Origin: a virus | DNA: 40,924 bases | Direction: 5' to 3' (one strand) | IMG/VR virus record: IMGVR_UViG_3300021963_000257 | Location: 1 to 40,924 of that record | Shown: piece after piece, positions 7,386 through 19,720 of the stretch | Layout: every line of letters starts with the position of its first letter | Numbering within the stretch: position 1 is the stretch's first letter | Notes under the pieces: model-generated | Database searches by the model: none | What the model saw: the letters and a program-made list of their open reading frames with translations, nothing else | What the model was told of the DNA's origin: nothing | Position numbers and translations under genes: made by a program

Positions 7386-7616
7386 CTACCAATCAGGATA
7401 TTCCCATTTATCCAAAACTCTTGTTGTCATTCTACTAGATACTATCCTTTTGATCGTACATTCTTTACATTCATAAGAATATGAAGAAGGAACGGGACCT
7501 CTATCCTTTCTCGTTCTATAAAATCCATCAATAAGATTTTTTACTTCACCACATACTCTACACTTTCTATCATTCAATAGTAAGTGTCCTAGTCTAATCT
7601 GACCGTCTATGTCCAT
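7386..7616 (-). CDS. Small Cys4 zinc-binding protein between gp17 and gp18
   Basis: This 76-residue protein has two Cys pairs, CRVC at about residues 19-22 and CKEC at about 49-52, separated by a segment with GEVKNLIDGFYRTR. That spacing, with the G-x-V/x-K-x-x-x-x-F-Y pattern, is typical of small treble-clef or HNH-type zinc modules in phages. No HNH catalytic His-Asn-His is visible, so nuclease activity cannot be claimed. I chose the ATG at 7616 over the GTG at 7634, because this ATG overlaps the gp17 stop as TAATG, a standard coupling arrangement. Translation should therefore follow gp17. A role in packaging or DNA binding is inference from position. Confidence 0.78.
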   Translation of the reverse strand: MDIDGQIRLGHLLLNDRKCRVCGEVKNLIDGFYRTRKDRGPVPSSYSYECKECTIKRIVSSRMTTRVLDKWEYPDW

Positions 7617-9262
7617 TAGGATAGATACTCCCACATATAAGATCTATCACCATATTCATCTGCATACCAACGATCTCCTTCAGAATCTACAAAACTATTA
7701 CCATCCAATCCATCAACGATGAATCCAAATGGTGCCATATCCTGCTCAATTTGATTCTTCTGTTCTTCATAGATTCTCTTGCGAACATCTTGATCGGTAA
7801 GTTCTTTGAAGTAATCTTGTGCGACCAACCAAGCATAAATTACCAAGCACATAGCTAAGTCATCATTACATCCTTCTTCTGCTTCGAAAGAATTGTGCTT
7901 CTGAATAAAGGTTGTGAGTTCTGCAATAATCTCATAATCGTTAATGAGAAGTTTGTTTTCTTCAATCATCGTCTTGAGGTTTAAGCATCCAACCTTCTTC
8001 ACGGTCTTTGACATTTTTACACCAAGTTGAGTCTTCTTGCCAGAGAATCCCTGACCCACGATTTGACCTGCTCTACCACGCATAGAACACATAAGAAGGT
8101 TATTATACTCCAAGTCATAATGAACGATACTTGCTACCTGATCTCCAACATCATTTACTTCACATAATATGTAAGAGTCATTATAGTTCTTTGCCACATC
8201 CACAATAATGCTTGGGAATAACATCGGTTTAATTTCGTTGTTTCGATACTTTGCAACTACTTTGTGTGGGAATGTTGTGATATCTATGACTGCGAATGCT
8301 GAGTAATCATTTCCAACACCACGAGCAACATCAACAGTGATTACATAATCATGATTCTCTTTTACATCTTCATAAACATCTAAACCTGCACTTCGTTTTA
8401 GTGGGTGGTCATAAACAAGACTCTTAAGTTTACTGGGTGCAATAAGAGTGTCAACAGATCCTAAGAACTCGCACTCAAACTCAACCTTGAATTGTTGATC
8501 AGATGTGTTTGCAATTGTTTGAGCTTTCCAGACTTCATCTCTACCAGGGACTTCACTCCAGTGAACATCTGTTGGAATATATTCATTTTTCCTCTTTTCA
8601 GCATCATGCCACATACGGTAGAAGTGATTCATACCATGTGGTGTGGAAACAATAATTACTTTCGTACTTTTACCAGAAGTAATAGTAGGATAAACAGATG
8701 CAAAGAAAGAATCTGCAATATGATTTGGAACGAATGCAAATTCGTCCAAGAATAAAATGTTAAATGACATTCCTCGGACAGCAGATGCTGATGTGGATGC
8801 CGCAAGAATCTTAGAACCGTTTTCTAATTCCAAAGAACCTTTGTTCCAAGATATAATACCCTGCTGCATCCACTTGGGCAAGTTTTCATAAGCAGTCTGT
8901 AACCTGTCCAGGAGCTCCCTTGCAGTCGCTGCTTTGTTTGCAAGGATACCTATGTTCACATTATCATTAAAGACGGCATAGTGGAGCAGGAAGGACACAA
9001 CAGTGGTTGATTTACCAGTCTGTCGTGGCATCTTACATATATTAAATCTGTGATTGTGGAAGTTGTTGACTAACTTCTCCTGAAACGGATACATCTGAAA
9101 AGGTTGTAGTCCCTTATCCAGAGTCACAATCTTCACATAGTTCTTTGCAAAGTAAACAGGATCTTCTTTACATTTTACAAACTCTAAGATTTGTTCTTGA
9201 GTGAATTCGATCGGCGTATTTGCTTTTTTTAATAATGGATTACCAAGATATACATCACTCAT
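7616..9262 (-). CDS. 17: Terminase large subunit gp17 (packaging ATPase and nuclease)
   Basis: This 548-residue motor packages DNA through gp20 and cuts the concatemer. The ATPase domain has Walker A MPRQTGKS (78-85, T4 SRQLGKTT), Walker B ILFLDE with D173/E174, and the coupling motif STPHG (206-210). The RNase-H-like nuclease domain has the expected acidic triad: D311 in VITVDVARG, E368 in LCEVND, and D467/D468 in CNDDLAMCLVIYAW. Length matches the family (T4 610 aa, with a shorter N-terminus here). Unlike T4, where 16 and 17 overlap, it is separated from gp16 by three genes. The ATG at 9262 lies 2 nt after the stop of the 527-residue gene, with no clear Shine-Dalgarno, so coupling is likely. 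Confidence 0.97.
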   Translation of the reverse strand: MSDVYLGNPLLKKANTPIEFTQEQILEFVKCKEDPVYFAKNYVKIVTLDKGLQPFQMYPFQEKLVNNFHNHRFNICKMPRQTGKSTTVVSFLLHYAVFNDNVNIGILANKAATARELLDRLQTAYENLPKWMQQGIISWNKGSLELENGSKILAASTSASAVRGMSFNILFLDEFAFVPNHIADSFFASVYPTITSGKSTKVIIVSTPHGMNHFYRMWHDAEKRKNEYIPTDVHWSEVPGRDEVWKAQTIANTSDQQFKVEFECEFLGSVDTLIAPSKLKSLVYDHPLKRSAGLDVYEDVKENHDYVITVDVARGVGNDYSAFAVIDITTFPHKVVAKYRNNEIKPMLFPSIIVDVAKNYNDSYILCEVNDVGDQVASIVHYDLEYNNLLMCSMRGRAGQIVGQGFSGKKTQLGVKMSKTVKKVGCLNLKTMIEENKLLINDYEIIAELTTFIQKHNSFEAEEGCNDDLAMCLVIYAWLVAQDYFKELTDQDVRKRIYEEQKNQIEQDMAPFGFIVDGLDGNSFVDSEGDRWYADEYGDRSYMWEYLS

Positions 9263-9264
9263 AA

Positions 9265-10848
9265 TTAATCTTCTACATAGATGAACGAAGCACTAGCAGC
9301 AGTCATATTGCTTGAAGATGAAACAACTGCTGTTAGATAGTTATTCGGTGGAATGTGAATGCCAATATTAGACAAATCAACATCAATTGTTGAATTACTT
9401 GTCATATGAAATGCTGCAATTGGTGGAGTTGATTGTGCTGGTAAAACAAACAATCCAGTGCTATCTCGTGAAGCAAAAAGAGATGCATTGAATTCTGTTT
9501 GGGTAGTCCATCTCAGATAATTTGTAGTTATTGGATTGTAATACAAGTATATAACTGCAGGATCTCCAACTGTATTTACTGAAGCAGTAAGTCTCATTGG
9601 GAGAAGATCACGAGTATTAATCTTACCTTGATAAATTAGTCTATTTTTGAGTGAAATAAGATGATAAAGAGAACCAGGAGTATTCATTGCATCAGTTCTT
9701 GTTGCAGTTACTGAATATGGGAGTCTTGTTCTTTCGACAATACCTTCAATTGCTCCTAAGAAAGATGCTCCTCTACAAGTAACAACACCAACACCATTAT
9801 TTAAATTTGCTGCCACATATCCAACTTTCATTGATGGATTGTCTAGATGTGGATACTCATTTTTATTTGTATAGTGCTCGTGATGGAAGAAAATCATATC
9901 CCCATTGAGAGGATTTTCAACTGCATAACGAATTTCTCCTGCACCCAACCAACGGAAGTTAATTTGATATACATTTAACTTTGATGGATCTAAAGTGATC
10001 CCAGAATATCCTGTGCCATCAAGTTTATCAATACTAAAATCTTCTTGGAATGTCCAATTTTCAGTTTGTGTTTCTCCGACTTGTCTTGTTTGTTGAGTAA
10101 AAGTTATAGTTGCGGTGCTCGTAATATTGAATGTATTAGTTTGTGGACCAAGAGATGTAGCCAAAAATCTTAATCTACTTTGATCATATTCCAAAACATA
10201 TAAGGCATTAAAAAGTGCTTGTGATCTTAGTCCTTGTGCAAGTTGGGAAATATTTCCCTCAATAGTTCCTGAACTTAAAACTACTCCAGTAAATGTAACA
10301 CCATTTAATGTAACAGTTACAGTTCCATTTGCTAAGGCAGTGAAGTTAAAATCGTGGATATGTGCTTTTCCTCCGTTAGCACGAAGAACACCAAACTGTC
10401 CATTGGTGTGAGCATATCCAATTTGAACTGCTTGCTCCTGGTTAAATAAACCTACCCTTTGAGTAAATCCTACAGGATTATCCGAAAATGATGCAGTAAA
10501 TCTGGTAACAGCACCTTGACCTGGACGGTATCTGAGAAAGTTAGTACTTCTTATAACACCATAAGAGTTTGCATCTGAACCAGCACCTACAGTAAATCTA
10601 GAATCGCCGTTAGTAGCAATTCCACTTGCACTAAATGTAAATGTCTCAAACTCTCTAGGATCCAATCCATATACAGCATCACCCTGAATCTTTGGTGTTA
10701 ATGGTATAGCAAGGTTTTCTCCAAAAGCAGATTTAGAACATGCACCTTCATTTAGAAGATTTCCATACTCATCAGCACGAATATAAACTTCATGAAGTGT
10801 TCGTTCTTGATTAAGATAATCTTGTGTAGATTTATTCCACTGAGCCAT
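9265..10848 (-). CDS. Probable virion-associated beta-rich protein in terminase cassette
   Basis: This 527-residue protein has no enzyme motif, signal peptide or membrane segment that I can see. It is Thr/Asn/Ser/Gly-rich and beta-rich. Residues about 95-140 contain STNFLRYRPGQGAVTRFTAS, then IGYAHTNGQFGVLRANGG. About residues 298-345 contain FRWLGAGEIRYAVENP, MIFFHHEHYTNKNEYPHL and NPSMKVGY. I recall this pair of blocks (RYRPGQG..RFTA and WLG.G.I.Y.V...G....H..) from structural proteins of marine phages and giant viruses, but could not check it. The assignment as a virion component is therefore inference. It starts 4 nt after the 106-residue gene and runs to within 2 nt of gp17, so it is co-transcribed with packaging genes. 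Confidence 0.7.
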   Translation of the reverse strand: MAQWNKSTQDYLNQERTLHEVYIRADEYGNLLNEGACSKSAFGENLAIPLTPKIQGDAVYGLDPREFETFTFSASGIATNGDSRFTVGAGSDANSYGVIRSTNFLRYRPGQGAVTRFTASFSDNPVGFTQRVGLFNQEQAVQIGYAHTNGQFGVLRANGGKAHIHDFNFTALANGTVTVTLNGVTFTGVVLSSGTIEGNISQLAQGLRSQALFNALYVLEYDQSRLRFLATSLGPQTNTFNITSTATITFTQQTRQVGETQTENWTFQEDFSIDKLDGTGYSGITLDPSKLNVYQINFRWLGAGEIRYAVENPLNGDMIFFHHEHYTNKNEYPHLDNPSMKVGYVAANLNNGVGVVTCRGASFLGAIEGIVERTRLPYSVTATRTDAMNTPGSLYHLISLKNRLIYQGKINTRDLLPMRLTASVNTVGDPAVIYLYYNPITTNYLRWTTQTEFNASLFASRDSTGLFVLPAQSTPPIAAFHMTSNSTIDVDLSNIGIHIPPNNYLTAVVSSSSNMTAASASFIYVED

Positions 10849-10852
10849 TAAT

Positions 10853-11173
10853 TCAAATCCAATCTAATTTTGCGGGATGATATCTCTTATCGTCGGTTAC
10901 TCGAATAGAACCTTTTGAGTTCTCGTTAATGTATATATTCTGAACAATTGAACCCGGATATTCATCTTGGAGATATTGAGTTAACTCATTCTTTGTTGGA
11001 ATGCCATTTTCAGTTACCATAGAAATTCTATGGATGTTTCCTCTGTAAATAATATCCGCAGAAAACTCTTCTGTCTGCGGTTCAGGTTGATTATTTCCAC
11101 CAACAATCAGAGTTCCATTGAAATCTCCGGAAATGTTGATGCTTTCTGATAAGAATTGTTTGAATGATTTCAT
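10853..11173 (-). CDS. Putative internal head protein with capsid-targeting N-terminus
   Basis: The first eleven residues of this 106-residue protein, MKSFKQFLSES, align position for position with the capsid-targeting sequence of T4 internal proteins (MKTYQEFIAEA in IPIII). The LSE tripeptide at 8-10 matches the L/I-x-E site after which gp21 cuts. The expected mature product starts at Ser11. Residues about 38-85 form a small module (IIYRGNIHRISM, IPTKNEL, YPGSIVQNIYINE) that is also present in the adjacent 639-residue protein. The ATG at 11173 lies one base after that gene's stop, so both are made from one transcript. A head-packaged, possibly injected protein is a well-supported inference; its target is unknown. 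Confidence 0.75.
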   Translation of the reverse strand: MKSFKQFLSESINISGDFNGTLIVGGNNQPEPQTEEFSADIIYRGNIHRISMVTENGIPTKNELTQYLQDEYPGSIVQNIYINENSKGSIRVTDDKRYHPAKLDWI

Positions 11174-11174
11174 T

Positions 11175-13094
11175 TTAGTTACAGTTCCAACGACGAAGAG
11201 CTTTATTAATTCTGGAATCAGGATCTCTTGCAGTTTCGGCAGAGGTTAATCTTTTTTTCATTCCGGTCATACGACGGCAAAAGGACTTACGACGTTCAGC
11301 CCTCTTGCCCGTAGGCTTTTTTTCGGTTACTGCAGTTTGTAGTTTTGAACCTGGATTCTCTTTACGATATGCATCAACTGCTTTCTGACTGAGACCATCA
11401 GTTTTATCTTTACGATTTACTGATTGCCAATCTTCAGTTTGTAAAAAAGGTTCTCCTGGTTCATATTCAGCAACATGATATGACTGAACTCTTGCACCGG
11501 GATATACTTTTTCAATCTGATCTTGAACATCTCTTCTGCTTGGAACAGATACTTGTGGGAAGAAAATCTTAAGTGAATAAAACTTTCCTTTCCAAGTTAA
11601 CATTACATGCATCAGATTTCCAGTCTTTGCTGGAATTCTTACTGCTTCTTCAAGTTCAACATCTTCACTTACAGATTTCCATCCACCACCTGCTTTTTTA
11701 TATTCTTTTGCTGCCCAACCATTAGCATAGGCAGATGGATATACATCAAACTTTGCTTTTGCTCTGGACTTCATTTTGGACCAGAGAGTTGGATTTGTTG
11801 GAACATTTTTTTCATTAATAACTTCTGCTTCCAACTGTAAAAGAATTTTATCTACAAGTTTAATATCTTCTCCGAATAATTTTGGTCCCTTTGTTTTTCT
11901 CTCTGCTGCTGCCCTTTCTCCTTCAGTAGAACCTTTTTGAGCAAGAGTTCTAATTTTTTGAGCACGTTGTGCTTGTCTATGTTTTTGTGGATCGATAGTT
12001 AAATCTGACTCACTTACAGGAACACAATTTGGAACTTCTTTACCACCTTTCTTCTTCATACCCACTTGCTTATATCCAGTCCAGCAAGGTCCTTTTGCTT
12101 CCTCAATATCATGTTCACCACTATCTAAGTAGTCTGCGGCACTATCGAGATAGTCTGCTGCTTTCGTGATCTTAGACTGTACCCACGCTTCAATATTTCC
12201 CTCACCTTTACCCATTTTTTTCTTAAGTCTCTTTACGGCATTTTCTACTGTAGAAAGTTCGGAACGAGCCATAGAGTGCTCATGATCTTTTTGTTCATTT
12301 GTTGGGTGAATTTGTGCAATATCATACTTTGCCTGATTTGTCATAATTGCGGGAGGCATTGAGAACATATCCCAATATCTTGGACCATATGCACACTCAC
12401 TTCTAGTTTCATTTTTTTGACACTTGGGACAATATCTAACCGATCCCATTTGTTCCTGAATTTTATTAGATACCATCTTTGGTTTTCCTCCTTTTCCTGG
12501 ACGATCTGCTACTGGATCTTCTTTTCTTTTTCTTTTTACAGCAGCAGCAATCTCATCCTTAGACATTTTTGCTGCCTTTTCTTTTGAAAGACACTTTGGT
12601 TTACCTTCTCCAGGTTCACGAGCACACTTACCAATTCTCTCACCTTTAGTATTATAACGATCCCATCCACCGCCACCTACTCCACCTTCACTACCAGTTC
12701 CAAACCACTTACGAAGATCTTCATCTACTCTTTTCTTTCTTCCTTGGCAGTGAGCTTTCTGTGAAAATCCTTTTGGATTATCACAGTCAATCGATTTTTT
12801 ATATTTTTCACTCCAACCTTCATAAGCCATACCTCTACGAGTATGCTTAAGTTCTCCTTTTTGCTTTGCCATCAGAGTTTTAGAAACTTTTCCAAAATCC
12901 TTGATAGGATTTTCGTCGGGAACTGGTTTCTTAGGATTGTCGTAAATATCAACATCTCCATCGGCATCACGATCAACATATTGAACGGTTGAATGATGAA
13001 CCAACTGTTTCATATCCAAATTGGGATCAAGCTGATGTTGCTTTTTTCCAAGATGTGGAGTTTTATGAGTAAATTTGGTGAACTGGGGTTTCAT
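11175..13094 (-). CDS. Large basic mosaic protein, candidate packaged polyprotein
   Basis: This 639-residue, Lys/Arg-rich protein is a string of short modules. From the ATG: a 12-residue EF-hand-like loop at 41-52 (DRDADGDVDIYD); a Cys module at 99-121 (SIDCDNPKGFSQKAHCQGRK); a Gly-rich Cys module at about 126-190 (KWFGTGSEGGVGGGGWDRY); a module with CPKC (222-225); a tandem repeat AADYLDS (312-325); GPCWTGYKQVG to PNCVP (335-359); an SAYANGWAAKEYKKAGGGW module (454-472); a YPG module (495-545) shared with the next gene; and a C-terminal Arg/Cys domain (DGLSQKAVDAYRKENPGSKL, KRAERRKSFCRRMTGMKKR, ending RRWNC). I remember several of these (DUF5872- and DUF6321-like) from marine phages and giant viruses. 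I chose the ATG at 13094 over the TTG at 13097. A late promoter lies at 13119-13126. The function is unknown. Confidence 0.75.
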   Translation of the reverse strand: MKPQFTKFTHKTPHLGKKQHQLDPNLDMKQLVHHSTVQYVDRDADGDVDIYDNPKKPVPDENPIKDFGKVSKTLMAKQKGELKHTRRGMAYEGWSEKYKKSIDCDNPKGFSQKAHCQGRKKRVDEDLRKWFGTGSEGGVGGGGWDRYNTKGERIGKCAREPGEGKPKCLSKEKAAKMSKDEIAAAVKRKRKEDPVADRPGKGGKPKMVSNKIQEQMGSVRYCPKCQKNETRSECAYGPRYWDMFSMPPAIMTNQAKYDIAQIHPTNEQKDHEHSMARSELSTVENAVKRLKKKMGKGEGNIEAWVQSKITKAADYLDSAADYLDSGEHDIEEAKGPCWTGYKQVGMKKKGGKEVPNCVPVSESDLTIDPQKHRQAQRAQKIRTLAQKGSTEGERAAAERKTKGPKLFGEDIKLVDKILLQLEAEVINEKNVPTNPTLWSKMKSRAKAKFDVYPSAYANGWAAKEYKKAGGGWKSVSEDVELEEAVRIPAKTGNLMHVMLTWKGKFYSLKIFFPQVSVPSRRDVQDQIEKVYPGARVQSYHVAEYEPGEPFLQTEDWQSVNRKDKTDGLSQKAVDAYRKENPGSKLQTAVTEKKPTGKRAERRKSFCRRMTGMKKRLTSAETARDPDSRINKALRRWNCN

Positions 13095-13118
13095 CAAATA
13101 ATATCAAGGATCTTTCTA

Positions 13119-13126
13119 TATTTATG
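13119..13126 (-). promoter_or_regulatory. Late promoter for the terminase-internal cassette
   Basis: The minus strand reads CATAAATA. It contains the TAA stop of gp16 (13122-13124) in frame and lies 25 nt before the ATG of the 639-residue gene. The cassette and gp17 therefore have their own late start. Confidence 0.75.
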
Positions 13127-13547
13127 TTTTTTCATCAGTAAGACCATTCTTCAGTAACTTTGATAACTCTGCTGTGGAACCAACAAAGAGTGCATTAGTA
13201 ACATTTGTAGGTCCTTTGACCTTTTGCTCATCAATATCTTTAAGTTTCTTTTGAAGATCAATAAGTTTATCTGTTGCATCAGCAACATTCTTGATAAGTT
13301 GCCCTGCAACTTCGTATGCTCTAGGCATCTCACTTTCTTGAGCAAGTTCCAAAATACCATTAAGAGCTTCTTGACCCTTTTCGATAATTGAATAGAGATT
13401 ACCTCTAGTATACTCATAATCTTTTTTGAGATCGTTTGATACTGAGGCTATAGATTCTACTTTTTCCTCTATGGATTCCACTTCCCGAGATACTATATCT
13501 CCAGCAACATTAAATGCATCATTAAGATCATCGAATTTTTTTGTCAT
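13122..13547 (-). CDS. 16: Terminase small subunit gp16
   Basis: This 141-residue, almost all-helical protein has the layout of T4 gp16 (164 aa): a charged N-terminus, a central coiled-coil oligomerisation region and a short C-terminal tail. The stretch EYTRGNLYSIIEKGQEALNG then ILELAQESEMPRAYEVAGQL corresponds to the T4 coiled-coil region with its SPRHMEVFATL. NVTNALFVGSTAELSKLL matches the T4 C-terminal NIQNATVFMGSPTELMDEI. It recognises packaging sites and stimulates gp17 (known for T4). The start at 13547 is chosen because AAAGAG (13555-13560) stands 7 nt before it; the upstream in-frame ATG at 13553 is only 1 nt from that site. Confidence 0.92.
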   Translation of the reverse strand: MTKKFDDLNDAFNVAGDIVSREVESIEEKVESIASVSNDLKKDYEYTRGNLYSIIEKGQEALNGILELAQESEMPRAYEVAGQLIKNVADATDKLIDLQKKLKDIDEQKVKGPTNVTNALFVGSTAELSKLLKNGLTDEKT

Positions 13548-13554
13548 TTTCATA

Positions 13555-14583: not shown

Positions 14584-14591
14584 TATTTATG
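14584..14591 (-). promoter_or_regulatory. Late promoter for gp15
   Basis: The minus strand reads CATAAATA with the TAA stop of gp14 (14587-14589) inside it, 23 nt before the gp15 ATG. Confidence 0.75.
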
Positions 14592-15969
14592 GATTTCCAA
14601 ATGGATTGGATTCACTGAAGTCTATTATATTATCTGCTTCTGTTTCTATAACATCATTTTCTGCATACTTATCTATAGTATTATAGTTATTTACGATTCT
14701 GACTTTATAAGTTGCTCCCGATTTAGACCCCGTTAAAACATCACCATTTACAAATGATCCTGTTATATTTGAAACTTGAAGTACGTTTGTAACAGAATTC
14801 CAGTTTCTGACAACTGCAGTTGTTGAACTAATACTTCCCACTACAGTTTCATTAAAAATATAAGTTCCTATTCCCGACGAATATGGAGATGCTATAGTTA
14901 TAGTTGGAGCAACGGTATATCCTAAACCAGCATTTGTGATATAGATCGATGTTACAACTCCTGCGGTGTTTATTTTTGCTCTTGCAGTTGCAGTTATTCC
15001 TGCACCTGGGGAACCAGTAAAAGTAACTAATGGAGAAGAGTCATATCCAGATCCTCCGGAAGTTACTGTAATAATGCCAACTATTCCATCACCAATAGTT
15101 GATGTTGCAGCTGCTCCAGCACCACCTCCACCGACAAATACTACAGAAGGAGCAACTGTATATCCATATCCTGGATTTACAATTTCAACCCCCTGAACTT
15201 TATAATTTTCAGTGTTTCCATTACAATCAACTAATCCACCAATAAGAGTCGCAATTCCAACCGCAGTAAGACCTCCAGAAGGTGCTGATGAAATAGCAAC
15301 TCTAGGTGCAGAAGTATAACCATTACCTCTATTGGTTACTGTTATAAATCTTACTCCACCGTTAACTATTCCTGTCAGTGCAGTTGCTGTAGATCCAACA
15401 CCAACCATATTCAGTGATTGGATAAAACCTTCCTCCACAATATTATCATCTATTTCATCGAAACCAGTATCAACAATTTCATCTTCATATCTGAAAAGTT
15501 CGCACCTTAACTCATAAACATATGTTTTTTGAAGTTGATAAAATGGTTTTTCATGCTCTACAAATTTAATTTCAAATAATCTATCTCCAAGAGGAAACCA
15601 AATTAAATCACCTTCTTTTGGTCTAGAAGACAATTTTATATTTGGTAGATTTTTTGATAGAGGAGCAATATAAGTTTCAAATCTTTCCTTCGAAATAATC
15701 AAGTTTAAATCATTTAATGGTTGAACTCCAAATTTTGATAATATAGTTCCTTGCCCCTCATATCCATCATAAGTATCTACATAAGCTTCTATAGGATACG
15801 CGTTATCAAATTTAGACTCAATAACCTCTTTTATTACTGTTTTTTCGGTAACATATTTTCTCGGAAGATAATAAACCTCAACTCCATACATTCGGAGTTG
15901 TTCATTAATCAAATCCTGTATTAATCCCTGTTCTGCTGCAGAACCTTGAAGAAAAAATGGATTTAACAT
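14587..15969 (-). CDS. 14: Neck protein gp14 with a repeat insertion
   Basis: This 460-residue protein is a head-completion (neck) protein that, with gp13, readies the filled head for tail joining. The N-terminal part matches T4 gp14: MYGVEVYYLPRKYV (T4 MRGVECYYVPREYV), DGYEGQGTILSKFGVQ (T4 EGYEGQNSFFSNFGMQ), and KEGDLIWFPLGDRLFEIKFV (T4 [20 protein letters not shown]). The C-terminal DKYAENDVIETEADNI resembles T4 DQYAEVDQINSEAKEY. Between them, about residues 190-390 are an insertion of GxGYxxxP repeats absent from T4 gp14 (256 aa). I chose the ATG at 15969, one base after the gp13 stop, over the upstream TTG at 15978. Confidence 0.94.
   Translation of the reverse strand: MLNPFFLQGSAAEQGLIQDLINEQLRMYGVEVYYLPRKYVTEKTVIKEVIESKFDNAYPIEAYVDTYDGYEGQGTILSKFGVQPLNDLNLIISKERFETYIAPLSKNLPNIKLSSRPKEGDLIWFPLGDRLFEIKFVEHEKPFYQLQKTYVYELRCELFRYEDEIVDTGFDEIDDNIVEEGFIQSLNMVGVGSTATALTGIVNGGVRFITVTNRGNGYTSAPRVAISSAPSGGLTAVGIATLIGGLVDCNGNTENYKVQGVEIVNPGYGYTVAPSVVFVGGGGAGAAATSTIGDGIVGIITVTSGGSGYDSSPLVTFTGSPGAGITATARAKINTAGVVTSIYITNAGLGYTVAPTITIASPYSSGIGTYIFNETVVGSISSTTAVVRNWNSVTNVLQVSNITGSFVNGDVLTGSKSGATYKVRIVNNYNTIDKYAENDVIETEADNIIDFSESNPFGNP
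14870..15365 (-). repeat. GGxGYxxxP repeat insertion in gp14
   Basis: There are four imperfect copies of a unit of roughly 40-60 residues: V-x-I-x-V-x-N/S-x-G-x-G-Y-T-x-x-P-x-V, followed by a Gly/Ala-rich turn. Visible cores are NRGNGYTSAPRVAI, NPGYGYTVAPSVVF, SGGSGYDSSPLVTF and NAGLGYTVAPTITI. The insert splits a T4-like neck protein. Confidence 0.88.
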
Positions 15970-15970
15970 A

Positions 15971-16810
15971 TTATCCAATCATATCTAGTGGTGGAAGTTC
16001 ATAAGTATTGGACATCTTTTCCATGATGTTTTCAAGTTCTTTTTGTGCATCATCATAAATTTGTCTTCCATTAAGTTCTATACCTCCAGGAAGTTTTACT
16101 CCTTGGAACTTAATCAAGTTTTGTCCCCACTGTTTTTTTATCAGAGATGTCAAATACATTTTTAAGAAAGAATCATTCCAAACTTTAGAATAATCATTTG
16201 GATCTAAACTTCTATAACAATCGATAATCAAATAAGTTCCTGCGGTTACTGATCCCCAATCAATATCTAAGTATAAACGATCTTGTCTTTTATTAAATCT
16301 AATTTGTTTTTGTGTTGTTAGTAAAAAGTTAATATCTTCTAAGTAAGTTTTTACCATTGCATAAGTTAAAAGTTCAGTGGATCCCCAATAGTAAATATCA
16401 TTTAAGAATAATTGATACTTCACACTGAACATATTATTTGTGATAGTATTAGTTCCATCAAAGTGGAATATCTTATTTACACCAATAACTGAAGGTGGGA
16501 TTTGAAGATAGTTTCCACCTTCATAAAAGTTGAACTGAGTGGTCAAACCTACATTATGATTTACTGTTATTGTGCTTATTCCAACTCCAGATGTTGGTTG
16601 TGCTCTACCTCTGTTAATATCATCATCAGTAATCTGATATTTTAAAAATGTTGGATATACACCATCAAAATGTCTTTCTTGGAAAAACTGAATAGCATCA
16701 TCAACTAAATCTTCAATTTGTTCATCCGCAACATTAATTTCCAAAACTGGAGCACCCAGTTTTCTCTTGCAGTAATCAATTAATTCTTGTCTAGTTGATG
16801 GTTGTGCCAT
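15971..16810 (-). CDS. 13: Neck protein gp13
   Basis: This 279-residue protein is the partner of gp14 in head completion. Typical gp13 sequence includes TRQELIDYCKRKLGAPVLEI, VADEQIEDLVDDAIQFFQER, HFDGVYPTFLKYQITDDDI, FSVKYQLFLNDIYYWG and DCYRSLDPNDYSKVWNDSFL, near T4 gp13 in length (309 aa). Its ATG at 16810 overlaps the stop of the 54-codon gene as TAATG, and gp14 follows after one base. The four genes from the 842-residue protein to gp13 are thus chained by overlaps, and gp14 joins them at a one-base gap. Confidence 0.95.
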   Translation of the reverse strand: MAQPSTRQELIDYCKRKLGAPVLEINVADEQIEDLVDDAIQFFQERHFDGVYPTFLKYQITDDDINRGRAQPTSGVGISTITVNHNVGLTTQFNFYEGGNYLQIPPSVIGVNKIFHFDGTNTITNNMFSVKYQLFLNDIYYWGSTELLTYAMVKTYLEDINFLLTTQKQIRFNKRQDRLYLDIDWGSVTAGTYLIIDCYRSLDPNDYSKVWNDSFLKMYLTSLIKKQWGQNLIKFQGVKLPGGIELNGRQIYDDAQKELENIMEKMSNTYELPPLDMIG

Positions 16811-17195: not shown

Positions 17196-19720
17196 GCAAG
17201 TGCGATAACTCTAAGGTCTCTTAATCTTGGTGGATATGCCTGACTTGTAGAAGATCCAATAATCTTAATTGTAAAATATCTAAACGAAGGTAAATTATCT
17301 ACAGTGAATTCATAGTCTTTAAATTCTATCGTATTTGAATCAAATCCAATAATATCAGTCTTGGCAAACTTAGAATCCGGAGTGCCATCACTTAGAGAAT
17401 CATTGGGTTCTAATCCAGAATCTAATCTCTGCTTATTTACATATCCGGGGAATGGATAGTATATTGGGCTTTCGTCTTTATTACTTAAAACAGAATATAA
17501 AACTCTTAAATCACAATAAGTATTAATATGTGCAGAAACTAATACCTTAATAGATGTTGCAGAATTTTCTAATGAAAGGGTATCTGTAGCATAAACAAAA
17601 GACGATGGATCATTTTCTAATGTAGAAACTCTATCATCAGTTGCATAATTTTCAATTGGATTATTAATTCTATTTGTTGTAAAAATAACACCAACTCTAT
17701 CTAAATCGATAACAGGAGAAATGTAATCATTTGAAGTAAATAAATTGGAAGTTAGAGTAAAAGATTTATTTCCCGGTAAATTTGAAAGTTTTGTTGATTC
17801 ATTTATTTGGGAACATATTAGTCTAGGATTTGTGAAGTAGTTGTTTGAATTTAAGTTTATATCTTCAAATCCACGATCTAAGAATGAAGTTTCGGAACCA
17901 TCAACACTTGTGCCACTAACTGTTCTAACAAATGAACTAATACTAGTCCCTGGAATGGTCAATGTTTGTACCGTTGGTCTTATACTTTCAAACTGTATAT
18001 TTTGAGTTGCTTCAATACCAGAACCTCCAGAAGATTTCGTATCATTGATATAAAGATTTGGGAATGAAGATGAACTTCTATTGGTTATTCCTTGCGGTAG
18101 AGGTCCAGTGTACTCTGTATTTGAAGTGTTTATCTTTAATGTATAATAGTCAAGATCTATTGGATCAGAAACAGATGCGTCAGATAATATATGTTGTTTA
18201 TTGATTCTTCTTAATGAAACTCCTGCTACTTCATACTTATATACGAATGCTCCAGCATCATAACTAAATGAATTAGTTCCATCAATTCCTCTAGTTATTC
18301 CGGTTAAAGTGTTTGAACTCACTCCCTCATAAGAAATTATTTCATCACCAATTAAGATATATCCTGGATTTGTACTTGCTACTCCTACATTTTCAAAAGT
18401 TGAAAAATTAGTAGCATCTTGTAAAATAATTTCTGAAGTAGAAGTTGATTCATATCCTGTTGTTAAGATAGTCGGCAAAACATCAGATTCAACTCCGGAA
18501 ATTATTACAGAGTTTTCTGTTGCGTGCATCCCATGATTTTTATGGTTCACTTTTATGTGAAGTCCATCTGTTACTTCTATTAATCCACCAGGAAGAATAG
18601 TAACATTTCCACCAACAGATGCATTAAGATCTGTTGTTATTCCGGAATTATTAATATATTGAATAGTTTTTCCTACACCAACTTGAAATGTTCCTTGAAC
18701 CTGATCTATAATCAGTTGATTTACTCCAAAAATATCGGATACTGAAAACTGCGCATTAAGACCTAAAGAACTAATACCAACCTGAGTTGGTGTTAGCACA
18801 TCACCAATAACATATCCCGCACCACCACTGGTAATTGTCGCAGCAACTGCTACTCCATTTTGTATGCTGACACTAGCCGTTGCATTGACTCCACTACCCG
18901 TTAAACTTGTCAACGAAACATTATTGTAAGTATAGTTTCCTATAGATGGAGTATATCCTATTCCTGGATTAATTACATTTAATGTACCAAAAGCAGATCC
19001 TGCAGAACCAACATAATTGCCGGTTCCATTAGATCCTTGTTGTAATATTGTATTCCCTAAAGTTAAATTAGAATCTTGAACTGTTGTACCTAATCCAACT
19101 CTAATTCTTTTTGATGTAAACTCTAAAGAATCTTTTAGTAAGTTTGGTACTTGATTATTACCAGATAGCATATCTGGATTATAAAAATTGATACTTCCTT
19201 GAGTTTCTATAAATCTTGCCCTATAAAGATTGAATTTCAAATCTTCATATGGACTTTCATTCCAAGTAGATCCATTTTGAGATTTAAATAAACCACCAGA
19301 GTTTGGTTGTTTTGTTACAACATTTCTAGAAAATTCTTGTCCACCTCCTAAGGCAACTCTATCAGAAACATTGCTAACATCAAACTCACCAAGATTAGAT
19401 ACCCATACATTATAAAGATCTGAATTCGAAGTTATTACCAAGGCATGAAATGTTCCTCCAGAAAGATATACTGGAGAATCAAAAGTAAATTTTGTCGGGA
19501 TTAATGCATTATTTGATATATTAACTTGATCTGCGTCAAGGACAACTTCAGAAAATGGATAAACTGAACTTGTAGGATATCCTAGTTCTAAAGGTCTTAA
19601 TTGAACTGTTACTGGAAGTTGATCGTCTTTAGATTGAAAAAACAACTCAACAGAAGTCACAAATATCCCTGTAGAGGGATTAACATAAAAAGTTTGTGCT
19701 AATGGATCTGCTAGTTTCAT
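17192..19720 (-). CDS. Large virion structural protein (842 aa), baseplate/fibre region
   Basis: The opening MKLADPLAQTFYVNPSTGIF, then VTSVELFFQSKDDQLPVTVQ, PVYLSGGTFHALVIT, GGLFKSQNGSTW and DLKFNLYRARF, is the pattern of a cyanophage structural protein that normally follows or is fused to DUF4815 proteins (recalled, not searched). About residues 245-320 carry GxGY repeats (INPGIGYTPSIGNYTYNNVS, TSGGAGYVIGD). About residues 425-500 carry the RGxxGT module (YILIGDEIISYEGVSSNTL, TGITRGIDGTNSFSYDAG). NHKNHGMHATENSVIISGVE is another familiar block. It sits where T4 has the short-fibre and fibritin genes, but no fibre motif is evident, so the exact role is unknown. GAGGA precedes the ATG by about 5 nt. 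Confidence 0.82.
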   Translation of the reverse strand: MKLADPLAQTFYVNPSTGIFVTSVELFFQSKDDQLPVTVQLRPLELGYPTSSVYPFSEVVLDADQVNISNNALIPTKFTFDSPVYLSGGTFHALVITSNSDLYNVWVSNLGEFDVSNVSDRVALGGGQEFSRNVVTKQPNSGGLFKSQNGSTWNESPYEDLKFNLYRARFIETQGSINFYNPDMLSGNNQVPNLLKDSLEFTSKRIRVGLGTTVQDSNLTLGNTILQQGSNGTGNYVGSAGSAFGTLNVINPGIGYTPSIGNYTYNNVSLTSLTGSGVNATASVSIQNGVAVAATITSGGAGYVIGDVLTPTQVGISSLGLNAQFSVSDIFGVNQLIIDQVQGTFQVGVGKTIQYINNSGITTDLNASVGGNVTILPGGLIEVTDGLHIKVNHKNHGMHATENSVIISGVESDVLPTILTTGYESTSTSEIILQDATNFSTFENVGVASTNPGYILIGDEIISYEGVSSNTLTGITRGIDGTNSFSYDAGAFVYKYEVAGVSLRRINKQHILSDASVSDPIDLDYYTLKINTSNTEYTGPLPQGITNRSSSSFPNLYINDTKSSGGSGIEATQNIQFESIRPTVQTLTIPGTSISSFVRTVSGTSVDGSETSFLDRGFEDINLNSNNYFTNPRLICSQINESTKLSNLPGNKSFTLTSNLFTSNDYISPVIDLDRVGVIFTTNRINNPIENYATDDRVSTLENDPSSFVYATDTLSLENSATSIKVLVSAHINTYCDLRVLYSVLSNKDESPIYYPFPGYVNKQRLDSGLEPNDSLSDGTPDSKFAKTDIIGFDSNTIEFKDYEFTVDNLPSFRYFTIKIIGSSTSQAYPPRLRDLRVIALA
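18775..18992 (-). repeat. GxGY repeats in the 842-residue protein
   Basis: Two copies of the same beta-unit seen in gp14 and gp7: NPGIGYTPSIGNYTYN, then the Ala-rich turn GSGVNATASVSI, then TSGGAGYVIGDVLT. They are embedded in an unrelated structural protein. Confidence 0.7.

Follow-up and report, generated by a model that had tools for sequence, protein, structure and literature searches.

A capsid-targeting-type leader protein and an exchangeable lectin-fold partner encoded between the terminase genes of a T4-like cyanophage

The IMG/VR virus record IMGVR_UViG_3300021963_000257 (40,924 nt, all of which was analyzed and is called the window below) holds the structural cluster of a T4-like cyanophage, encoded on the minus strand throughout. 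Between gp16 and gp17, the genes for the small and large terminase subunits, lies a cassette of three genes, here named p640, p106, and p527. As judged by sequence comparison, p106 carries a T4-type capsid-targeting sequence (CTS) leader that is conserved in all of its homologues, and p106 and p527 constitute an obligate, tightly linked pair found in the head module at one of two sites, 16-17 or 20-21. In this pair, p527 combines a fixed N-terminal tail with an exchangeable lectin-like body; the third protein, p640, is basic and module-shuffled. The best explanation, which we consider probable on balance, is that the 16-17 hot-spot in this lineage holds late-expressed virion cargo genes.

Results and discussion

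A capsid-targeting-type leader on p106

The small protein p106 (positions 10853–11173; 106 aa; phrog_1742) has the N-terminus MKSFKQFLSES. In T4, residues 4 and 7 of the CTS act in targeting and residues 8 and 10 in processing, and the cut is made after L/I-x-E (PMC9026906). The p106 leader MKSFKQFLSE (11144–11173) obeys position rules identical to those of the T4 IPII/IPIII leader MKTYQEFIAE, with aromatic residues at positions 4 and 7 of a 10-residue CTS and a prohead-protease site L/I-x-E ending at residue 10, where a gp21 cut after E10 is predicted. These rules are kept in 174 homologues: position 4 is F or Y and positions 7 and 10 are F and E in all 174, while position 8 is L or I in 166 and M in 8. 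The head-targeting peptide that the original prediction, made from the sequence alone, had placed on p106 is a genuine CTS-type leader. Moreover, the gp21 protease and gp22 core required by a CTS-bearing head protein are encoded in the window, as ORFs 1555–2205 and 416–1507 match genes that named relatives have annotated as head maturation protease and scaffold. We regard p106 as likely to be head-targeted.

An AlphaFold model of p106 comprises a short helix at residues 4–9, a disordered linker, and a beta-beta-alpha-beta domain. Its fold matches are common alpha/beta proteins (ribosomal eL20, T7 Gp2, phi29 p6; best Z 5.3), and no fold family is claimed. T4 IPI* was not among the matches listed for this model, which proves nothing, and a sequence search of solved structures returned no useful relative for p640, p106, or p527. 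The likeness to T4 internal proteins claimed by the original prediction stands for the CTS on p106 and for the fact that both sets of proteins vary between relatives. It fails in that p106 is the sole cassette protein with a CTS and p527 is lectin-like; furthermore, unlike the T4 internal proteins, p106 is acidic (pI 5.0), and its head location is a prediction from sequence.

The leader of T4 gp61.1, a 54-aa hypothetical protein (L514:467-631; T4 18966-19130), starts MKTFKEFIKED and is near that of the internal proteins.

The p106-p527 pair and exchange of the p527 body

p106 and p527 are adjacent in 135 loci, with gaps of −1 to +8 nt. The pair precedes gp17 (site A) in 148 loci and lies between gp20 and gp21 (site B) in 31, never occurring twice per locus; in T4, the 20-21 gap holds the prohead-core genes 67 and 68. 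Contact between the two proteins has, in our estimation, an even chance.

p527 (9265–10848; phrog_1645, E 8e-34) is assigned as a virion structural protein. Its structure model (pLDDT 86.7) is beta-rich, as originally described, and consists of an N-terminal tail (MAQWNKSTQDYLNQER...; 10756–10848), a concanavalin/GH16-like jelly roll (residues 50–370; 9739–10701), and a C-terminal beta domain (residues 371–527; 9268–9738). The jelly roll matches 3i4i with VIA Z 17.1 and a root-mean-square deviation of 2.8 over 181 aligned residues, a fold shared with GH16 glucanases and legume-lectin/concanavalin-like proteins (Z 17). p527 differs from GH16 glucanases in lacking the E-x-D-x-x-E motif and in a sequence identity of about 10%; the catalytic motif E-x-D-x-(x)-E is likewise absent from 61 of 62 homologues, which argues for a binder rather than an enzyme. 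The first 20 residues (MAQWNKSTQDYLNQERTLHE) are 88% conserved, compared with 20–60% for the body, and are probably disordered, since they are modelled with low confidence. The tail is thus a probable docking peptide.

About 12 classes of p527 body were distinguished, several of which occur at both genomic sites. Similarity of p527 is hardly related to that of p106 (Spearman 0.06) or to gp17 identity (Spearman 0.14, compared with 0.77 for gp16, 0.67 for gp18, and 0.38 for p106), although some of the fetched loci had been picked for their similarity to p527, a bias that can depress such coefficients. Swapping stands apart from that bias, as illustrated by individual loci: L107 and L108 have gp17 at 97–98% yet p527 at about 30%, and L183–L185 carry the p527 class of the window at 82% even though gp17 is only about 79% identical.

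A p527 homologue, S-SZBM1_190, was detected with 3 peptides by mass spectrometry (MS) of S-SZBM1 virions (PMC9146016), and viral structural matches of p527 include S-TIM5 virion proteins and giant-virus proteins. Presence of p527 in the virion is very likely, whereas its injection into the host is unlikely. Overall, p527 resembles a display protein of lectin fold more than it does a T4 internal protein. The turret of the archaeal virus HFTV1, whose head consists of a galactose-binding plus deacetylase-like protein (PMC12494034), was considered as a model for p527 and dropped, the 418-aa Foldseek match not having been shown to be the turret protein.

CTS-like tags and virion proteomes

Every ORF of 17 complete phage genomes (T4 and 16 cyanophages and pelagiphages) was scanned with a single loose CTS pattern. 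In the T4 control, the pattern recovered IPII and IPIII; it also picked up gp61.1 and two short ORFs that are probably chance matches. The 16 other genomes yielded 32 CTS-like ORFs, 12 of them in the 16-17 interval versus 0.93 expected by ORF share; these 12 are mostly p106 orthologues, plus S-CREM2 ORF136 and S-SZBM1_192, and since most belong to one family they do not represent 12 independent events. Reversed sequences gave 6 matches in 8,060 ORFs. Several further probable chance matches occur in S-PM2, S-CAM9, S-RIM2, Bellamy, and S-B43, so that a CTS-like match alone is not proof. Among the fetched loci, 162 of 4,149 ORFs had a stricter CTS-like start, compared with 19 of 16,343 internal methionines; p106 accounts for 156 of the 162, in part since p106 itself served to fetch many of the loci.

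All three CTS-like ORFs of S-CREM2 appear in its MS table, namely a SAM lyase (ORF6), the interval gene ORF136, and a cytidylyltransferase (ORF154) (PMC10665884). Among the three in S-SZBM1, the cytidylyltransferase was detected, and the p106 homologue and the DUF6321 protein S-SZBM1_192 were not (PMC9146016). One of two is labelled as virion in S-SCSM1, the cytidylyltransferase/nicotinamide mononucleotide adenylyltransferase (NMNAT) as opposed to the p106 homologue (PMC9602691); detection of S-SCSM1 gp029 and gp031 combines GenBank 'virion protein' labels with the 45 virion proteins found by MS in that study. When the three proteomes are pooled, 5 of 8 CTS-like proteins were detected versus 1.4 expected (p 0.006), from which we conclude that cyanophage proteins with a CTS-like tag tend to be real virion proteins.

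Outside the interval, the main CTS-like family is the virion-detected cytidylyltransferase/NMNAT (T4-GC190), with a p106-like N-terminus in nine phages: L374:8819-10048 (S-SCSM1), L365:389-1477 (S-SZBM1_140), L358:4608-5468 (S-CREM2 ORF154), and orthologues. The SAM lyase S-CREM2 ORF6 (L352:3837-5081), also virion-detected, starts MKDFDSFLEE and provides the same likeness in one phage. Both differ from p106 in being recognizable enzymes with genes elsewhere in the genome. Cyanophage virions have repeatedly been found to hold enzymes and proteins of unknown function whose entry route is unexplained, and the authors of one such study asked whether these are contaminants (PMC10665884). A CTS-like N-terminus on the cytidylyltransferase/NMNAT would explain the entry of this enzyme into particles. 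In the literature searched, the capsid-targeting sequence was not tied to cyanophage proteins, both terms occurring together only in a T4 review.

The freshwater cyanophage DSL-LC03 encodes further CTS-like proteins of 412 aa (L402:694-1932; no Pfam match) and 257 aa (L405:3765-4538), which are candidate new head cargo.

The 16-17 interval in relatives

Comparing the interval across relatives, as had been suggested, revealed variable cargo between conserved gp16 and gp17, in line with the published hyperplastic region. Cyanomyoviruses are on record as having a hypervariable stretch from g15 to g18 (PMC2984593, PMC3037559), attributed to Millard 2009 as cited in PMC2984593, and a Synechococcus-enriched hot-spot between gp16 and gp17 (PMC3037559). 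The locus is consequently not undescribed, contrary to the original prediction. It shares genomic place, variability, and a late structural module with the published region; the published accounts, however, stress metabolic genes, as opposed to the CTS-tagged p106 and the p106-p527 pair seen here. No description of the tagged p106, the pair, or the second site at gp20-gp21 was found in the literature searched.

Interval length ranges from 260 nt (S-SSM7) to 7,820 nt (S-RIM2) among 98 loci with both terminase genes, and is longer still, about 9.7 kb, in the complete genome of S-SCSM1. The interval contains PTOX, gnd, and zwf in S-SM1 and S-BM3, PTOX and gnd in S-CAM9, petE in S-SM1, S-RIM2, and S-RIM8, NblA in S-SCSM2R, homing endonucleases in some cyanophages, and an oxygenase plus a PrnA halogenase in the pelagiphage HTVC008M. 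Fiber-like genes occupy the same slot in S-SM2, Bellamy, and P-TIM68, and DUF6321 proteins recur in most cyanophages. Because metabolic and other genes fill it in relatives, the interval is not in general a locus for head cargo. It probably serves head cargo in a subset of phages including this one, so that the proposed variable locus for head-packaged proteins is supported in this lineage and is not general.

In S-SZBM1, an 87-aa protein encoded directly after gp16 (S-SZBM1_195; L261:7378-7641) is among the most abundant virion proteins (emPAI 2.66; PMC9146016).

p640 and DUF6321

p640 (ORF 11175–13097, ATG at 13094) has a pI of 9.6, a net charge of +40, and 11 Cys, consistent with its earlier description as a basic mosaic protein. 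Its C-terminal DUF6321 domain (11187–11411) scores 58.3 bits against PF19846, well above the gathering cut-off of 28.5 (E 1.2e-15). A second domain (11475–11633) is related to p106 (hhalign probability 94%, E 1.3e-7), and according to Foldseek it is also present in other DUF6321 proteins. Relatives of p640 are basic too (median net +35), have a C-terminal DUF6321 in common, and differ by shuffled upstream modules; crude hand-written patterns gave about 78 module architectures in 145 p640-type ORFs, a figure that is indicative only. Short stand-alone DUF6321 proteins have a CTS-like leader in 10 of 23 cases versus 5 of 3,324 control windows, and two of them adjoin an NMNAT-like gene in the contigs inspected. 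DUF6321 homologues are found in virions of S-SCSM1 (gp029, by label; PMC9602691) and S-CREM2 (ORF137, 4 peptides; PMC10665884). The proposal that the cassette encodes virion proteins is supported for p640 and p527 by their homologues (PMC9146016, PMC9602691, PMC10665884); p106 homologues, which offer few tryptic peptides, went undetected in both virions concerned.

Cassette layout and late promoter

The distance from the gp16 stop to the gp17 start is 3,859 nt, filled by the three tightly linked genes; the 3.8 kb originally given, the number of genes, and all coordinates were right. Gaps between p640 and p106, p106 and p527, and p527 and gp17 are 1, 4, and 2 nt, within the 1–4 nt predicted. 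As also predicted, genes 16 and 17 of T4 overlap, by 17 nt in NC_000866 (96194-96688; 96672).

The proposed late promoter fused to the gp16 stop is real. Its core ATAAATA (13119–13125) includes the TAA stop of gp16 (ACATAAATATAG) and agrees with the late promoter published for cyanomyoviruses, NATAAATA (PMC2984593). Such motifs cluster at gene starts: 9 of 12 minus-strand ATAAATA in the window lie in the 60 nt that precede a gene start, stretches that together make up 3.4% of the window (binomial p 1.3e-11). The core is kept at the gp16 stop in about 44 of 126 relatives; about 16 more matches at +23 are coding coincidences.

Weighing the explanations

If the cassette holds virion cargo genes, the late promoter would drive p640, p106, and p527 together with gp17 during prohead formation. 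The CTS leader would pull p106 into the scaffold core, a gp21-type protease would trim it after Glu10, and mature p106 would be retained in the head. p527 would enter the virion by its conserved tail, perhaps held by p106, and p640 may go into the head to neutralise or bind DNA. Least certain are the binding of p527 by p106 and whether the p527 body lies inside the head or is displayed on it.

Several observations weigh against virion cargo. p106 homologues went undetected by virion MS in two of two phages, S-SZBM1 (S-SZBM1_191) and S-SCSM1 (gp030), mature p106 offering about 3 usable tryptic peptides. The p106 model has weak fold matches alone. Neither p640 (start MKPQFTKFTH) nor p527 (start MAQWNKSTQD) of the window has a CTS, the interval enrichment stems mostly from one family, and whole-particle MS cannot separate the inside from the outside of the head. 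In addition, small pelagiphages and cyanopodoviruses also carry DUF6321, next to non-structural genes; it is therefore not a head-only module, nor is its function bound to T4 heads.

Four other explanations were scored; they are not mutually exclusive, and the scores do not sum to one. The strongest, which we hold to be a serious possibility though short of probable, makes p527 a capsid-surface, neck, or tail lectin for adsorption, anchored by its tail, with variability that mirrors host-surface glycans. The ConA/GH16-like fold without catalytic motif, the variable body exchanged between phages on a fixed anchor, as in receptor-binding proteins, the viral structural matches, and the fiber-like genes in the same slot all point this way, whereas the close tie of the gene to a head-targeted partner, and its location mostly at two sites in the head module, speak against it. 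A further serious rival, though less likely, gives p106 a part in building the head, as a prohead-core or assembly protein comparable to T4 gp67/gp68 and largely destroyed by cleavage rather than kept as cargo, with p527 the structural protein it helps to assemble. Site B is the position of T4 genes 67 and 68, the leader implies entry into the core, and p106 is acidic, unlike T4 internal proteins, and undetected in S-SZBM1 and S-SCSM1 virions (PMC9146016, PMC9602691). T4 core proteins, however, are cut into many fragments (PMC9026906), whereas p106 consists of one conserved leader followed by a conserved folded domain, and many head-making cyanophages (S-SM1, S-SM2, S-PM2, P-SSM2, Bellamy) lack it beside the terminase or portal.

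That the interval is a mere permissive insertion hot-spot, in which the three genes share only a late promoter, seems improbable. The published hyperplastic region (PMC2984593, PMC3037559) and the metabolic genes, homing endonucleases, PrnA, and NblA in the same interval would fit, but p106 and p527 have the same order and spacing at both of their sites, the interval is enriched in CTS-like genes, DUF6321 proteins recur there in most cyanophages, and homologues of two of the three proteins occur in virions. Most unlikely of all is a set of injected anti-defence proteins like T4 IPI*. The CTS leader and fast allelic exchange are features that T-even internal proteins also show (PMC3012670), and ORF136 and the CTS-tagged SAM lyase are present in S-CREM2 virions (PMC10665884); on the other hand, no known anti-defence or defence family was matched in PADLOC, NCBIfam, or Pfam, and neither a lectin fold nor a basic mosaic one is what an inhibitor would lead one to expect. 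PADLOC models gave no match at E 0.1, in a library of defence rather than most counter-defence proteins, and nothing was found to support the anti-defence role raised in the original prediction.

A more specific version of the cargo explanation is speculative: p106 might act as a CTS-tagged adaptor that enters the prohead core and brings in one of a dozen interchangeable lectin-like proteins via the invariant p527 tail, with NMNAT and SAM lyase using the same address system. If so, different glycan-binding cargo would be loaded or displayed via one address system, from either of two head-gene sites. The T4-type tag on those enzymes (NMNAT in nine phages, SAM lyase in one), together with the p106 family, offers a testable sorting mechanism for very abundant marine viruses. 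On this view, cyanophages may load their heads as T4 does, with some cargo freely swapped between phages, and the best-known cyanophage variable region, so far seen as a metabolic-gene island, would partly be a place for exchangeable virion cargo.

Flanking genes

The minus-strand gene order is gp13-gp14-gp15-gp16-[p640-p106-p527]-gp17-82-aa endonuclease-VII-like-gp18-gp19-gp20-p63-p88-gp21-gp22-gp23. Pfam and PHROG matches identified gp15, gp16, gp17, gp19, and the neck proteins; gp18 and the head genes were identified by matches to, and order in, annotated relatives. The cassette is bordered upstream by gp16 (13122–13553; PF11053, E 2e-9; phrog_445, E 6e-54) and downstream by gp17 (7616–9262; PF03237, E 6e-24; PF17289, E 2e-15), which is 86.5% identical to gp17 of Synechococcus phage Bellamy. 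The 82-aa endonuclease-VII-like ORF (7386–7634; phrog_4723) overlaps the gp17 end and is found behind gp17 in many relatives. gp14 (14587–15978) has an extra C-terminal segment, which beyond residue ~250 matches repeats of baseplate and tail proteins.

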